This document shows positions 2,764 to 53,443 of a DNA stretch of 53,443 bases, one piece after another. The stretch covers positions 1 through 53,443 of IMG/VR virus record IMGVR_UViG_3300005747_000096, one strand, 5' to 3'. The notes below the pieces were generated by a model. The model did no database searches. It saw nothing but the letters and a program-made list of their open reading frames with translations, and had not been told where the DNA came from. The DNA comes from a virus. Position 1 is the first letter of the stretch, and each line of letters starts with the position of its first letter. Position numbers and translations under genes: made by a program.

Positions 2764-4111
2764 TGCTCATCGCCGTTCCGTCACTGTTAATGCCACCTAA
2801 CAAAAGTGTGTTTTGCAACGTAAGCCCAGCGTGATCTAGCTGGTAATGCCAGCCCGTTGAAGCGCTTGCGTTTCCGCTGGTATAAGTTAGTGCAAAATTT
2901 GTGTATGTTGATTGGCTCACGCTTGAAGCTGAACCAAGATTAACTAAAGTAAGAGTTTCAGTTCCATAACCACTAAAAATAAGAACTCTGTTTCCGTTTT
3001 CATCTATTGTAGAAGCTACGTCAGTTCCTCTGTTAGTAGAGCTGGTGTTATTATGCCCTATTTGTCCACTAGATATTGCTTGACCTGTGGTTAAAACGGG
3101 CATTAAAACTTGCCCTGCCGTGTATGTACTTCCTAAATCGCTTAAATCTAAGAAAGATAGTTGGGTAGTGGCAGCATTTGCAACGCCGTGAACATAATGC
3201 AGAACTTCGTTTGTATCATCGACTGCATAAAAGCTAGTGTAGCGATTACCTGTGTCAGTTGTATTATAATAAGTAAGCCCAACGGCTGAACTACCTTGAT
3301 TTATGTAATCTCCAATGCGGGTGTGATTACTTACATTTGAGTCACTTACATCCCAAACTTCTGGACCCCCAATCAAATCACCAGATCTAAAAACTATTTT
3401 CTTGCGAGGCCAGTAAACAACATCCGCTCTAGTTAATGCAGCGGGTGACAAACTAGCGTTTTGCGCAGTGCCTGCTGTATAACCACTCGCAGATGGTGCA
3501 GCAAAAACTGTTAGGCTACCCGAGGCTCCATTTGCAACAATGTCACTGTAATCAATAGAGGTAAACCTTTCGCTTCCAGCAAATATCATTTGTCGGCTTG
3601 TATCTACCGCCATCTTAGTGAAATGGTTTAAATTAGGTGACTTAGTATAAGTAGCAAGGAGTGTAGGAGATCCACTAAAACTTGTCTTCCAAGAAGAAAC
3701 ATCCCAAAACCCTATCATATCATCTATTTGAGCGACTGTAATTAAAATGTCTGAGCTAGAATCATAGTAACAATTATAGCAACCGTTTAGATCTGACGAC
3801 TGACTAAAAGACCCAAGAATAGACATATTGGTTGGATCAGAAATATCAATAACGGTTATGCTATCGGATAACCTACCGGCTACCCATAAATAATCGTTTA
3901 CAGTATCGACGAAACCACCAATAGCGCCATTTAAAGTTGTCGAGTTTGATACAGAAGAAGCTGGGGTAATGTCGTGCGATTGAAACATTGTGCTGACATC
4001 AATGCTTATGACTGTATCTGTGGCGTAACTAGCTACGAAAATATAAGGAGTAACACTAGCCGCCGCTGCCGCTTTATTTACGCCAATTAATTTTCTCGCT
4101 ATGCTGCTCAC
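2753..4111 (-). CDS. Putative beta-propeller (LVIVD-like) tail protein
   Basis: The 452-residue protein contains repeated segments ending in phrases such as [16 protein letters not shown] and GFWDVS, spaced along the chain. This is the look of LVIVD/choice-of-anchor beta-propeller repeats, where each blade carries a V-x-V-I-D-I-S-type strand. The first 20 residues ([20 protein letters not shown]) form a short basic/Ala stretch that may dock onto the virion. The start overlaps the stop of the upstream fibre (4108-5637) by 4 nt (ATGA). A binding or structural role is inferred; no catalytic motif is visible. Confidence 0.55.
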
Positions 4112-24872: not shown

Positions 24873-25946
24873 ATGGCGCATATAAAATACCTGAGAAGGA
24901 AAACACTAGAGAGTGGACATAAGATCTGGGTGGTTAATCCACCTAAATACGTCAAAGAAGCTATTGGTGCTTACTATGAGCAGTTTTCTGATCAATCAGA
25001 TGCTACTGCGAGAGCAATCAGTATTGCGGATCAGTACACCGACTACAAAAGAAACATTAAGCGTGAAGTTCATATTAATGAGCGCACGGTTGGTGGCTTA
25101 GTTAATCAGTATAAGCAAACTAACAGTTGGAATAAGCTAACCGACAACTCTAAAAGAACCTACGACCAGTTGTTGCGGGGTACACTTAGATTACGGGTTA
25201 GTGAGTCACCCAAGTTGCTACAGGACATGCTGATAGAGCATATTTCTGTTAAACATGCAGAGTATTTGTACTCACACCTGTGCAAAGATGTAAGTATGCA
25301 CAGAGCAAACCATGTGTGTAAGGTACTCAGACGCATATGGACAGTAGGCCAGCGTCTTGGGTTAACAAAAGTCAATCCATTTAAGAATATGGGTCTAAGG
25401 AAGACGCCATCCCGTACTGTTCTATGGGAACCAGAGCAAGTACATGCATTTGTCGATAAAGCAGATGAAATGGGCACTCCTTCTCTGGGTACGATGGCTT
25501 TGCTTTGCTATGACCTATGCCAGAGGCCAGGAGATATGCGTCAGCTTACTTGGCAGGACTTTCGTGATCAGATCTTTGGGTTTGAGCAGGAAAAGAATAA
25601 GACATGGGTAGATATCCCTGCCTCTCCACGGCTGTTAGAGCGGATGCAATTGGTATCCCCAAGCAACTGGCATGATCAGATTGTGTATTACGAAAAGACA
25701 GGCAAACCATATGACCGCAGGCAGTACAATAAAGTCTTCTGTCGGATCAGAAACGCTGCAGGTCTGCCCTCTGAGTTACAGCTAAGAGATCTTAGACGTA
25801 CAGGTGCAACTGAAATGGCAGAAGCTGGCTGTACTGAGGACGAATTGCGTTCTGTAACGGGCCACCAGAGCCGTGACGTTCTTTCTATCTATGTAAGGCC
25901 TACAAGAAAGCTTGCCGCTGCAGGCATAAACAAGCGGTTTGGATAA
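24873..25946 (+). CDS. int: Tyrosine recombinase / phage integrase
   Basis: A 357-residue protein. An N-terminal arm-binding region and a SAM-like core-binding domain (about 70-170: GGLVNQYKQTN... to RIWTVGQRLGLTKVNPF) precede the catalytic domain. Catalytic residues are Arg218 in CQRPGDMRQL, Arg308 in LRDLRRTGAT (the usual His of HxxR is Arg305), His331 in TGHQS and the nucleophile Tyr340 in SIYVRPT. It should recombine the tRNA-Met-derived attP at 27194-27240 with a host tRNA gene. The start ATG follows GGGAG. No excisionase is recognised, although the small genes downstream are candidates. Confidence 0.9.
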   Translation: MAHIKYLRRKTLESGHKIWVVNPPKYVKEAIGAYYEQFSDQSDATARAISIADQYTDYKRNIKREVHINERTVGGLVNQYKQTNSWNKLTDNSKRTYDQLLRGTLRLRVSESPKLLQDMLIEHISVKHAEYLYSHLCKDVSMHRANHVCKVLRRIWTVGQRLGLTKVNPFKNMGLRKTPSRTVLWEPEQVHAFVDKADEMGTPSLGTMALLCYDLCQRPGDMRQLTWQDFRDQIFGFEQEKNKTWVDIPASPRLLERMQLVSPSNWHDQIVYYEKTGKPYDRRQYNKVFCRIRNAAGLPSELQLRDLRRTGATEMAEAGCTEDELRSVTGHQSRDVLSIYVRPTRKLAAAGINKRFG

Positions 25947-26107
25947 TGGCAGGTAATATTAACGGAGCGATAAAGGCTTCTGCGGTAGTAGCACTCTTAA
26001 TAGCACTTTTACCCGTGCTAATCGCTATGACCTATTCCGAATATCCACGGTACTGCAAGCTATCGATCTTGTTACCGTGCATTGGAGTTTATGATGAACG
26101 TAAATGA
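25946..26107 (+). CDS. 53-residue single-pass membrane protein
   Basis: The ATG at 25946 overlaps the integrase stop (TAATG). The product MAGNINGAIKASAVVALLIA has a hydrophobic helix to about residue 30 (LLPVLIAM), then TYSEYPRYCKLSILLPCIGVYDERK with two Cys. Tight coupling to the integrase supports translation. Unknown role; possibly superinfection exclusion. Confidence 0.5.
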   Translation: MAGNINGAIKASAVVALLIALLPVLIAMTYSEYPRYCKLSILLPCIGVYDERK

Positions 26108-26234
26108 GGCCAGAGCAGCCTTCGAAGCTGAACTACAGCGTGTGATTGAACAGCCACCACAGCAATTAACTGAACGCCTGATCGACTTGGTTAAGGCAAT
26201 TCGTGTGGAGTTAAGGAAAACTGATGGAAAGTAA
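26094..26234 (+). CDS. 46-residue helical microprotein
   Basis: The ATG at 26094 overlaps the previous gene by 14 nt, and the end overlaps the next ATG by 11 nt. The product MNVNEARAAFEAELQRVIEQ is followed by PPQQLTERLIDLVKAIRVELRK and looks like two helices. It could be an excisionase-like or structural peptide, but no signature supports this. Confidence 0.45.
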   Translation: MNVNEARAAFEAELQRVIEQPPQQLTERLIDLVKAIRVELRKTDGK

Positions 26235-26373
26235 GGAACTTTCGCATTTAGCCTACCACCTAGATATGTTAGGTGTAGTGCCACTCAAGAAGGTGGAAGA
26301 AGAAAAGAAGCTTCACCGTACATATGAGTATAGAAAAGTCGAATTAGATGAAAATGGAGAGCCACCTTGGTAG
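26224..26373 (+). CDS. 49-residue charged microprotein
   Basis: The product from the ATG at 26224 is MESKELSHLAYHLDMLGVVP, then a Lys/Glu-rich helix KKVEEEKKLHRTYEYRKVELDE and an end GEPPW. It overlaps the TTG start of thyX by 7 nt. Coding position within the int-thyX string and coupling are the only support. Confidence 0.45.
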   Translation: MESKELSHLAYHLDMLGVVPLKKVEEEKKLHRTYEYRKVELDENGEPPW

Positions 26374-27116
26374 CAGAAATCACAGTCGAATATGTAGATC
26401 ATTGCGGTACAGACCTTTCAGTCTGTGATGCTGCACGGGTGTCCTACGCAAAGAAATCTGAGCCAGTGGGATACTCTGGTGTAGATGGAAAACCCCTACT
26501 GCCTATCCTGCACGATAAGGATAAGAAGCTGATAAAGTATTTGGCTGATCATAATCATCATAGCCCCTTCAATCATACCTTCGTAACCTTTAGATGCTAC
26601 GCACCGTTGTTTGTTATAGCCCAGCTTCAAAAGCACGAATACATGCCGTGGAATCAGGAGAGCCGTAGATATATTGATGATGAACCTGAGTTCTATATCC
26701 CAAAGCAGTGGCGGGGCCGACCTAAAAACTCCAAGCAAGGTTCTGATGGGGTTGTTGATATCGGCGGTAGTGTTCCTGTAGGCCGGGCTATGTATGCTTG
26801 TAGGGATGCTTATAACGGCCTGCTAAAGGCTGGTGTAGCCCCTGAAATGGCTAGGATGGTATTACCTCAAAATATGATGGCACGGTGGATCTGGAGTGGT
26901 ACGGTTAAAGCTATATCGAAAATGGTAGGGCTTAGAAGTGCATCAGATAGCCAATACGAAAGCCAAGTGATTGCAAATCAAATCAGTGATATCGTAAGAG
27001 GATTGTTTCCCGTAAGCTGGGATGCGCTGGTTCCCCATAAAGAGATCATTCGACCAATGGATGATGAAGAGCGGCAGCAAGCCGTGTATAAATCTATCCA
27101 GAATCAGTACATTTAA
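26367..27116 (+). CDS. thyX: Flavin-dependent thymidylate synthase
   Basis: A 249-residue protein that makes dTMP from dUMP using FAD and methylene-tetrahydrofolate. It starts at TTG 26367 after GGAG. Seen motifs are RVSYAKKSE near the N-terminus, HHSPFNHTFVTFRCYAPLFVIAQLQKHEYMPWNQESRRYI at 64-103, and MARMVLPQNMMARWIWSGTVKAI near residue 170. The ThyX signature RHRxxSxNExSxR is replaced by QKHEYMPWNQESRR, and the usual HxSPFEH is HHSPFNH, so the dUMP-binding loop is divergent. It serves the nucleotide-supply group with MazG and the ribonucleotide reductase. Confidence 0.8.
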   Translation: MVAEITVEYVDHCGTDLSVCDAARVSYAKKSEPVGYSGVDGKPLLPILHDKDKKLIKYLADHNHHSPFNHTFVTFRCYAPLFVIAQLQKHEYMPWNQESRRYIDDEPEFYIPKQWRGRPKNSKQGSDGVVDIGGSVPVGRAMYACRDAYNGLLKAGVAPEMARMVLPQNMMARWIWSGTVKAISKMVGLRSASDSQYESQVIANQISDIVRGLFPVSWDALVPHKEIIRPMDDEERQQAVYKSIQNQYI

Positions 27117-27120
27117 TTTC

Positions 27121-27150
27121 TTGACATACGATTTCGGATACTTTTATGTA
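27121..27150 (+). promoter_or_regulatory. Candidate promoter downstream of thyX
   Basis: TTGACA (27121-27126, perfect) and a TATGTA -10 candidate at 27145-27150 (18-nt spacer); a TATACT at 27152-27157 is too far. A transcript would run through attP into the replication genes, so integration would cut it off from them. Confidence 0.4.
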
Positions 27151-27193
27151 CTATACTTAACTCTGGGTATTAACCCGTTGTTTTTATTGGACT

Positions 27194-27240
27194 TGGTTGC
27201 GGGAGTAGGATTTGAACCTACGACCTTCAGGTTATGAGCC
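27194..27240 (-). other. attP: attP core: 3' part of a tRNA-Met(CAU) gene
   Basis: Read on the minus strand, the 47 nt start GGCTCATAACCTGAAGGTCG and end in a T-arm GTAGG-TTCAAAT-CCTAC, then TCCCGCA, a discriminator A and CCA. This is the anticodon loop (CAU), variable loop, T-arm and acceptor 3' strand of a tRNA-Met or initiator tRNA. The 5' half is absent: upstream is AAAA instead of a complete anticodon stem. A tRNA 3' end in a phage genome near a tyrosine integrase is the classical attP identity segment, which restores the host tRNA after integration. Confidence 0.85.
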
Positions 27241-27393
27241 TTTTCAATGAAAACAATGGGTTATAGACGCCAAAGGTTAATAGGCCCATAACTCTGCCAC
27301 ATAATAATGTGCTTGACTTATATCAAAAAGCCTATAGCCTGCGGCTAACCCGCCCAGGGTTAGTAATAGCAACTAGCTAAGAGGCACAAGGCA

Positions 27394-27615
27394 ATGAATA
27401 AAGAGCAAGAAGATTTAAAGGGCAAAGAAGATTATATAAGCCCTGCTACCTTTCTATGTGAATACTGCACAATACCAGTACTTATCTCTCAGCCTGCAAC
27501 TGTATTAATGTATACATGCAAGGGGCCAAAATTCCCGAAGTATCTAGGAGAACTAGGCCCATCCTTAAAATTCACAAGACTATGCAGAGATTGTGGGGAT
27601 CACTTCGATGTCTAG
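27394..27615 (+). CDS. Small zinc-ribbon-like protein
   Basis: A 73-residue protein with two CxxC pairs: FLCEYCTIP (about 21-24) and RLCRDCGDHFD (about 65-70). These are typical of a zinc ribbon or knuckle. It overlaps the primase start by 8 nt. Related small zinc proteins often precede phage replication genes; function is unknown. Confidence 0.6.
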   Translation: MNKEQEDLKGKEDYISPATFLCEYCTIPVLISQPATVLMYTCKGPKFPKYLGELGPSLKFTRLCRDCGDHFDV

Positions 27616-28387
27616 TTATCGTGAACAGGTAGAATGGGTTAAAACCTTATCAATCAAAGAAGGCAGTCGGATAACAACCGACTGTCCATTTTGTGGTGGT
27701 AAGAACAAATTCACGCTAGATAAATTTGATGGTAAGCTTGTATGGAATTGTTATAGAGCATCCTGCAATGTTAAAGGCGCACATTCAGGTGAGCGTAATC
27801 TTGATGCGGTAAAGGCTAGACTATCTGGTTCTGCTATCAAGAGACATAAGCCTGAACCTAAACCTATTCCAACAATCACAACGAATGTATCAAACAGTGA
27901 TACAGCTTTAGCTTACCTTAAAAAGGTTAATAGTTATGATGCATATCTTAGAGGCGATATAAAGATTCGCTATGCCCCTAAAGAAAGTCGGGTACTCTTC
28001 TATAACAAAGACAATACAGGCGCTGTAGGACGCTCTATGAGGCCTGTTCGTGCTAAGTGGTGGAGTTATGGAGAACTATCTAAAGGCATACATGTAGGTA
28101 ATGGTGATCACGCAATCCTGGTTGAAGATGTAGCTTCTGCATGTGCGGTATCAAACGTAACAGGTCTAACTGGTGTTGCGCTATTAGGTACGAGCATTAC
28201 TAAAAGCATTAAAAGAGCAATTAGTAAGTATAAAAAAGTAACATTAGTTCTTGACAATGACGCAAGTGCTAAGGCAGTATCTCTAATGGGCGTACTTGGA
28301 TATCGTTCTCAGGTACGACTTACTGTGGTAGATCTAAAGTATCTATCCCCCGACAAGATAAGAGAGGTAATTGAATATGAAATTTAA
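27608..28387 (+). CDS. DNA primase (zinc finger + TOPRIM)
   Basis: From the ATG at 27608 (after GTGGGGA) the product has 259 residues. The N-terminal zinc module is C26PFC29...C48YRASC53, as in T7 gp4-type primases. The TOPRIM core has Glu173 in AILVEDVASACA and Asp216/Asp218 in VTLVLDNDASAKA. There is no fused helicase; the helicase follows as a separate gene at 29007. It is shorter than DnaG and corresponds to the primase half of gp4. Confidence 0.8.
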   Translation: MSSYREQVEWVKTLSIKEGSRITTDCPFCGGKNKFTLDKFDGKLVWNCYRASCNVKGAHSGERNLDAVKARLSGSAIKRHKPEPKPIPTITTNVSNSDTALAYLKKVNSYDAYLRGDIKIRYAPKESRVLFYNKDNTGAVGRSMRPVRAKWWSYGELSKGIHVGNGDHAILVEDVASACAVSNVTGLTGVALLGTSITKSIKRAISKYKKVTLVLDNDASAKAVSLMGVLGYRSQVRLTVVDLKYLSPDKIREVIEYEI

Positions 28388-51977: not shown

Positions 51978-53443
51978 TTAAGCTGCGTTTTTAAACGGGC
52001 TGCTTGGGGTAGAAGTTGATGTGGTTGCAAATGGCGACACATTTAGATCAGAACTTCTTGAAGTAAACGGAGGCTCAATAACGCTAGTGGTTATGTTCTG
52101 AGCGCCCCTAGCATTCACGATAGGAATGTTAACAGTACTGTTAATAGTACCAGTGAGTGTCAGAGTAGCATTGGCGCTAGTCTGGCTGTTAATATTAGCA
52201 ACAGCACCGCTGGAGAACACGCCTTCGGGATTGGCTTGAGAGGTAACCCCAATACTGGTGGACGGCTTACCATCTGCGACTGCATCGGCATCGATGCTGG
52301 TGGTTGATGCTACACTCGCCGCTGCAGAGGCATCCCTAATACGATCAAACGAAATAACTGCTGAGGTTTCAATGTCGGCAGTTACTTTTGGCTGTGCAAC
52401 TAATTGAGCAGCTATAGGTGCCGTACATGAAATCGTTGCTGAAATAAATGACGTTGATACTCGGTCTGCATCAATCGTCGCTGTAGAAGCCACGGTCGCA
52501 GCGGCCTCGCCTAGTTTTACGATTTGAGCATCGATTGAGGCGTTACTCTCGATTTCTGCAATAATACGATCAGCGAGAGCGCCGGTTACTGCAGCAACGA
52601 AGGTATATGTTTCTTCGGCCTCTGAGTTCTGTGGAACAGATCCGGTTGCTGTGGCAGCAAAGGTATATGTCTCATCAGCTTCAGAGTTCTGTGGAATAGA
52701 TCCGGTTGCTGTGGCAGCGAAGGTGTAAGTGGTGTCAGTAACCACCCCATCAAATACTTGCCCTACAGCATTAGCAGAAAAGGTATACGTTTCTTCGGCT
52801 GCAATATCGACGCCAATACCAGCATTCAAAGAACCAGTAAATTCTAGGGTTTCATCGACAGCCGCATTAGTGCCAATAGAGCCAGCCACTGTGGCAGCAA
52901 GGTCGTAGCTAGTATCAGTCTCAGCGTTTGTGCCAGTAGATCCAGATAATGTAGCAGTAAGGTTGTAGCTAGTATCAGTCTCAGCGTTTGTGCCGGTAGA
53001 TCCAGATAATGTAGCTGATATGGCATATGTTTCGTCGGCGTTGGCCTGTCTAAATTCTTCGCCAACTGCAGCGGTGACTGATATTACATCAGCACTGGCA
53101 GCGGATTTTATCGTCCTAGCAGGGTCTACTGAACTGGTATATAAGAAGTTGGCCGCAGCTTCTGCTAACCGAAGTCGAATACTGTCATTGACTGAGCTAG
53201 ATGAAGATATATCAGCGGTAACATCCGCTACCCGTACTCTGTTAACTTCAATTGTAGAAGATAGTACAGAAGATGTATCGGCTTCACCGTCTATTACTAT
53301 TTCACTGTCAGCCGACGATGTAGATAGTATTTCACCAGACGCAGCGGCGGTTATTACCTGTAGTCTACCAGTAACCGTGGATGCAACAGTGTACGTTTCA
53401 TCAACATTAGCATCTGTACCCGTAGAAGCAGCTACCGTCCCAG
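51978..53443 (-). CDS. Repeat-rich tail fibre-like protein (5' end beyond right edge)
   Basis: The frame is open from the right edge to the stop at 51978, at least 488 residues, so GTG 52889 is not the true start. The chain consists of repeats of about 20 residues such as TDTSYNLTATLSGSTGTNAE and ETYTFAATATGSIPQNSEAD, then less regular Ala/Ser/Thr/Ile repeats (ASVASTTSIDAD), ending SPFKNAA. Some repeats are near identical at DNA level with a 60-nt period. It resembles the left-edge fragment (1-186), which supplies a plausible N-terminus. Probably a fibrous virion surface protein. Confidence 0.65.
   Translation of the reverse strand, partial: GTVAASTGTDANVDETYTVASTVTGRLQVITAAASGEILSTSSADSEIVIDGEADTSSVLSSTIEVNRVRVADVTADISSSSSVNDSIRLRLAEAAANFLYTSSVDPARTIKSAASADVISVTAAVGEEFRQANADETYAISATLSGSTGTNAETDTSYNLTATLSGSTGTNAETDTSYDLAATVAGSIGTNAAVDETLEFTGSLNAGIGVDIAAEETYTFSANAVGQVFDGVVTDTTYTFAATATGSIPQNSEADETYTFAATATGSVPQNSEAEETYTFVAAVTGALADRIIAEIESNASIDAQIVKLGEAAATVASTATIDADRVSTSFISATISCTAPIAAQLVAQPKVTADIETSAVISFDRIRDASAAASVASTTSIDADAVADGKPSTSIGVTSQANPEGVFSSGAVANINSQTSANATLTLTGTINSTVNIPIVNARGAQNITTSVIEPPFTSRSSDLNVSPFATTSTSTPSSPFKNAA
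52600..53015. repeat. 60-nt tandem repeats inside the fibre gene
   Basis: The word GTAGCTAGTATCAGTCTCAG recurs exactly 60 nt apart (52905 and 52965), inside nearly identical repeat units. A second pair with a shared TCTGAGTTCTGTGGAA-type core lies at about 52620-52740. They encode 20-residue repeats and could recombine or collapse in assembly, which may explain why the sequence breaks here. Confidence 0.65.

Follow-up and report, generated by a model that had tools for sequence, protein, structure and literature searches.

In the window, the 53,443-nt stretch of viral DNA analysed here, we identified an int gene (24873-25946, plus strand) encoding a tyrosine integrase of the lambda-Int type with 357 amino acids. 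This ORF matches PF00589 (E=5e-16; 59.4 bits against a cut-off of 27.1) and phrog_1 (E=2.5e-36), and its product carries the catalytic R, K, R, H/W and Y of tyrosine recombinases in that order. The residues R218, K241, R308, H331 and Y340 are invariant in an alignment of the integrases of the window phage, CRP-235, CRP-3, CRP-212, CRP-738 and HMO-2011, and a profile of these six aligned integrases matched lambda integrase structures (best E=3e-8). A preliminary description of this DNA had reported a complete tyrosine integrase with Arg218, Arg308, His331 and Tyr340, which is borne out by the PF00589 match and the invariant residues, with K241 as an addition. We also found a sequence, TAACCTTTGG, that has only two copies in the window, one just 5' of the int start (24854, plus strand) and one inverted and directly beside attP (27279, minus strand); the two may be a shared binding site.

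The attP core is a 47-nt segment (27194-27240, minus strand; GGCTCATAACCTGAAGGTCGTAGGTTCAAATCCTACTCCCGCAACCA) that corresponds to positions 31-77 of the 77 positions of initiator tRNA-fMet(CAU), and it starts 1247 nt after the int stop. ARAGORN found no full-length tRNA in the window, and the segment is thus a 3' fragment. Between int and attP lies thyX (26367-27116, plus strand; PF02511, E=2e-39), a gene for a flavin-dependent thymidylate synthase that most relatives also have in this position and that is outside the integration machinery. On the opposite side of attP from int is the DNA primase gene (27593-28387, plus strand), the first recognisable gene of the replication module, assigned by phrog_47 (E=1.5e-14), Toprim_3 and synteny.

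The preliminary description had already recognised the 3' part of a tRNA-Met(CAU) 1.25 kb from int and had proposed a search of alphaproteobacterial genomes for the same 47 nt. The exact sequence was found in 9 of 385 such genomes (a sample of this one class), inside complete fMet genes: in most of the nine it is the end of a complete CAT tRNA gene, CGCGGGATGGAGCAGCCCGGTAGCTCGTCAGGCTCATAACCTGAAGG... The host gene, CGCGGGA...TCCCGCAACCA, has an unpaired C1/A72, and the CAT tRNA is therefore the initiator, which refines the earlier assignment to tRNA-fMet. In six host loci a 5S rRNA lies directly 5' of this gene. Identity to the host fMet genes extends over 48 nt (27194-27241), and the window match thus reaches tRNA position 30. 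As in attPs of the tRNA type, the phage copy is long enough to rebuild the gene, with an exact 47-nt match that ends in CCA. A chance match is excluded, because the 47 nt end real fMet genes and because about 110 related contigs have the fragment in this position as well.

The core had also been put forward as a handle on the host. The match to attB is genuine, but it does not single out a host, since it occurs in 9 of 385 genomes and unrelated elements use the same site. At three genome loci (L155, L162 and L163) we found the 3' fragment without a 5' half, a pattern left by other elements that use the fMet site. The one of these that was examined, in G144, is a 24.7-kb genomic island in the fMet gene, between two copies of the core (G144:C1:2457-27193; L158, L163, L167 and L168); it carries a DNA methyltransferase and its own integrase, unrelated to that of the window. 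This element was rejected because both integrase and cargo are unrelated.

The window shares with HMO-2011-type phages homologous portal, TerL, primase, helicase and DNA polymerase genes in syntenic order, and its record (53,443 bases) fits the group's size of approximately 53-56 kb. Its portal protein is 76% identical to those of CRP-738 and CRP-235 and 56% identical to that of HMO-2011. One hallmark of the group is a Family A DNA polymerase with a partial DnaJ central domain containing two CXXCXGXG motifs; the window polymerase has one full motif, CPSCAGVG (residue 347), and one partial motif, CDACDG (residue 310). The phage is best described as an HMO-2011-type, probably subgroup III-like roseophage, the comparisons covering pairwise protein identities and an integrase tree. 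Portal identity and synteny thus uphold the HMO-2011-type backbone proposed earlier. The accompanying view that an integration system is notable in a group known as lytic does not stand, since HMO-2011 and most relatives carry int and CRP-3 integrates. An integrase is present in HMO-2011 and in nearly all the CRP isolates that we compared, and int has been reported in all HMO-2011-type isolates known by 2021 (PMC8528129) and in most members of subgroups I and III (PMC9038755).

The informative relative is Roseobacter phage CRP-3 (MK613345; HMO-2011-type subgroup III, host FZCC0040); a study of 2019 showed, with sequence data from infected cells and with PCR, that it integrates into a tRNA-Met(CAT) gene of this host (PMC6918029). 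CRP-3 and the window have the same order of int, thyX, attP (minus strand), primase, helicase and DNA polymerase, and the same 38-nt core allele. On the other hand, their integrases are 48% identical, the tRNA match of CRP-3 extends less far on the anticodon side, and their overall DNA is not similar beyond the core. CRP-235 (MZ892989) and CRP-212 (MZ892988) also carry an fMet core at the same place, with integrases 64% and 46% identical to that of the window, respectively, although CRP-212 has a different T-stem allele; we found no published integration test for either phage. In CRP-738 (MZ892992; integrase 34% identical) attP is at the same place, whereas its core is the 3' part of tRNA-Asn(GTT). 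The subgroup I phages Puniceispirillum phage HMO-2011, CRP-1 and CRP-2 have a related integrase (26-33%) upstream of the primase, but there int directly adjoins the replication genes and no such tRNA fragment was found. The arrangement in the window is therefore already known and has been shown experimentally in a close relative, CRP-3, to which the window phage adds another member.

Two scans of viral contigs yielded 133 loci with integrase relatives. A tRNA fragment with sufficient flank was present at 110 integrase loci: 86 fMet, 16 Asn and eight of a third kind. In about 110 contigs the fragment is opposite in strand to int and lies between int (often int-thyX) and the primase gene, and position, strand and target are the same in nearly all relatives, down to approximately 41% integrase identity. 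The fragment is absent at locus L142, and no fMet, Asn or second-CAU fragment was found near the int genes of subgroup I (HMO-2011, CRP-1, CRP-2 and kin; L005-L010, L063-L092). An HMO-2011-type contig in a Rhodobiaceae MAG (L146) was considered as a provirus and rejected, as it has no tRNA and all its genes are viral.

The third kind of fragment is the end of a gene (L169) for a second tRNA with anticodon CAT, which is either tRNA-Ile2 or elongator tRNA-Met. This second-CAU fragment takes the place of fMet at L100:4251, L113:7032, L025:3793, L033:1496, L040:1027, L043:3190 and L121:2056, and the integrases that target it are up to 72% identical to that of the window. On the integrase tree, a quick tree with several long branches, explaining the distribution of the second CAT target takes five or more changes, spread over well supported branches, and the Asn group forms one clade. 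The tRNA-Asn(GTT) attP is at the same place in L004:2961 (CRP-738), L051-L062, L065, L069, L079 and L081, and we found no published report of this clade in the literature examined. The target switching and the survey of attP anatomy are the only part of this analysis that goes beyond that literature.

The flanks of the core carry putative sites for accessory proteins. An IHF-consensus site, H' (27251-27263, plus strand; AAACAATGGGTTA), has one mismatch to the consensus WATCAANNNNTTR. Allowing at most one mismatch, this consensus was found in 41 of 60 non-redundant attPs at offset +57, counted from the start of the core, and in 30 of 60 at offset -11; shuffles of the right flank gave at most two matches at any position. 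In the window, the place of the left site (27183-27195, plus strand; offset -11) is poor, with four mismatches, a point against a working integration module. Further to the right is a fixed-position motif, GCCCATAACTC (27284-27294, plus strand), a candidate P' arm-type site. Many divergent relatives have the heptamer CATAACT at offset 93 +/-1, and the tRNA-Asn phages have TGTTAACA at offset 91; the motif may represent an arm-type site. A CATAACT repeat in the left arm was dropped because it was not enriched relative to other phages or shuffles. We also dropped an inverted repeat that would pair the anticodon side of the core with the GGCCCATAACT motif, as a phage's own pairs scored 8.03 compared with 7.80 for pairs swapped between phages. 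The module resembles lambda in the profile match of the integrase catalytic domain and in a core flanked by IHF-consensus sites, whereas it differs in its tRNA target, in having no recognised excisionase and in arm-type sites that are only tentative.

These data bear on whether the integrase acts on the tRNA fragment at all. A distance of 1.25 kb, which includes thyX, separates the fragment from int, and this would suit a piece of tRNA picked up for another role and an integrase that uses a different site. However, IHF-consensus sites stand at fixed offsets around the fragment and the kind of tRNA follows the integrase clades. In addition, when the published CRP-3 primers were mapped on L002 (attL-R, 2829-2849; attR-F, 3642-3662), the homologous CRP-3 core (3171-3217) was found between them. 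A different integration site is accordingly exceedingly improbable.

The stretch that contains the core, the IHF site and the CATAACT site is followed, after about 20 bp, by a conserved -35-like TTGAC upstream of the primase gene. In the window this element is TTGACT (27313-27318, plus strand), located between attP and the primase operon and absent from the output of a generic promoter scan; TTGAC was found in 47 of 60 relatives, compared with 10% in shuffles. It is conceivable, but improbable, that attP forms part of the region controlling the replication operon, such that assembly of the recombination complex and transcription of the replication genes would be mutually exclusive and would give a lysis/lysogeny decision independent of a classical repressor. 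Integration is unlikely to sever the replication genes from their promoter, because the conserved TTGAC is on the primase side of attP and would stay with the primase. A palindrome, CACATAATAATGTG (27298-27311), lies directly 5' of the TTGACT. An operator palindrome before the primase -35 was too weak to claim, with dyads of at least five pairs in 9 of 47 relatives versus approximately 7% in shuffles.

The conservation of the core gives an indication of where strands would be exchanged. Across 44 non-redundant fMet attPs, tRNA positions 40-77 (27194-27231, minus strand, in the window) are the same as in the host gene except for the T-stem, in which the changes are paired. The T-stem has five alleles, each fully paired in a search that required pairing, and a repeat search without this filter gave T-arms paired at five of five positions in 109 of 109 cases. 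At tRNA position 39 and beyond, identity falls. We infer that strand exchange occurs in the overlap region CCTGAAG (27225-27231, minus strand), the 3' strand of the anticodon stem at positions 40-46, because of the sharp identity boundary at position 40 and because targets have switched between tRNAs that share the CUCAUAAC loop. Exchange at this place would leave the whole T-arm and the 3' strand of the acceptor stem of the rebuilt gene phage-derived, which would explain the co-variation in the T-stem. It is possible, if rather unlikely, that the same module exchanges strands in the T-loop (TTCAAAT), as documented for mycobacteriophage Ms6 (PMC1762012); the T-loop is roughly central in the invariant block of 38 nt. 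Nevertheless, a boundary exactly at position 40 and target switches between tRNAs with a common CUCAUAAC loop argue against this, and a phage exchanging in the T-loop could dispense with one strand of the T-stem, whereas the two strands co-vary.

With exchange in the anticodon stem as the preferred reading, the locus is very probably a lambda-type site-specific integration module, in which the window integrase would act on attP (27194-27240 together with its flanks) and on the 3' portion of the host initiator tRNA-fMet gene, recombining the two. Since attP carries tRNA positions 31-77, the junction on the thyX/int side would contain a rebuilt, intact tRNA gene, and the host 3' fragment that is displaced would come to lie at the junction on the primase side. 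IHF and the CATAACT site would help to assemble the complex. Judged from their sequences, the core and int almost surely constitute a working attP system, and the window phage itself probably integrates.

The main sign that the module is used is the conservation of a functional T-arm across divergent lineages, together with the integration of CRP-3. It has to be weighed against the possibility that the phage is now purely lytic, with integrase and attP left over. An integrase relative at E<=1e-30 was not found in 395 genomes of one Rhodobacterales-like family, a weak search that had no positive control, and no HMO-2011-type provirus was found among 153 viral-contig loci with a complete fMet tRNA or the 47 nt; the earlier suggestion to look for prophages of this kind at the fMet gene thus gave none. 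Furthermore, a scan of 40 window proteins revealed no recognisable repressor or excisionase. Against a relic, all the catalytic residues are kept, CRP-3 integrates, and the T-arm and acceptor are maintained with compensatory changes across lineages with integrases 41-60% identical, whereas an unused site would decay. We therefore consider a purely lytic relic very unlikely.

Phages of the HMO-2011 type rank among the most abundant in the sea and have slow-growing hosts, and how often they enter lysogeny is the question at stake. The conserved attP with its compensatory T-stem alleles, which preserve tRNA function, offers sequence evidence for integration across the int-bearing lineage, beyond the one tested isolate. 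Exact junction sequences are supplied for searches of Roseobacter genomes and metagenome reads.

At three of the surveyed loci (L024, L025 and L121), int alone is turned around with respect to attP and the genes for replication. The ends of the window record have no repeat, but joining positions 53443 and 1 gives a reading frame that is uninterrupted for 207 codons over the junction, consistent with a genome that is circularly permuted and nearly complete.
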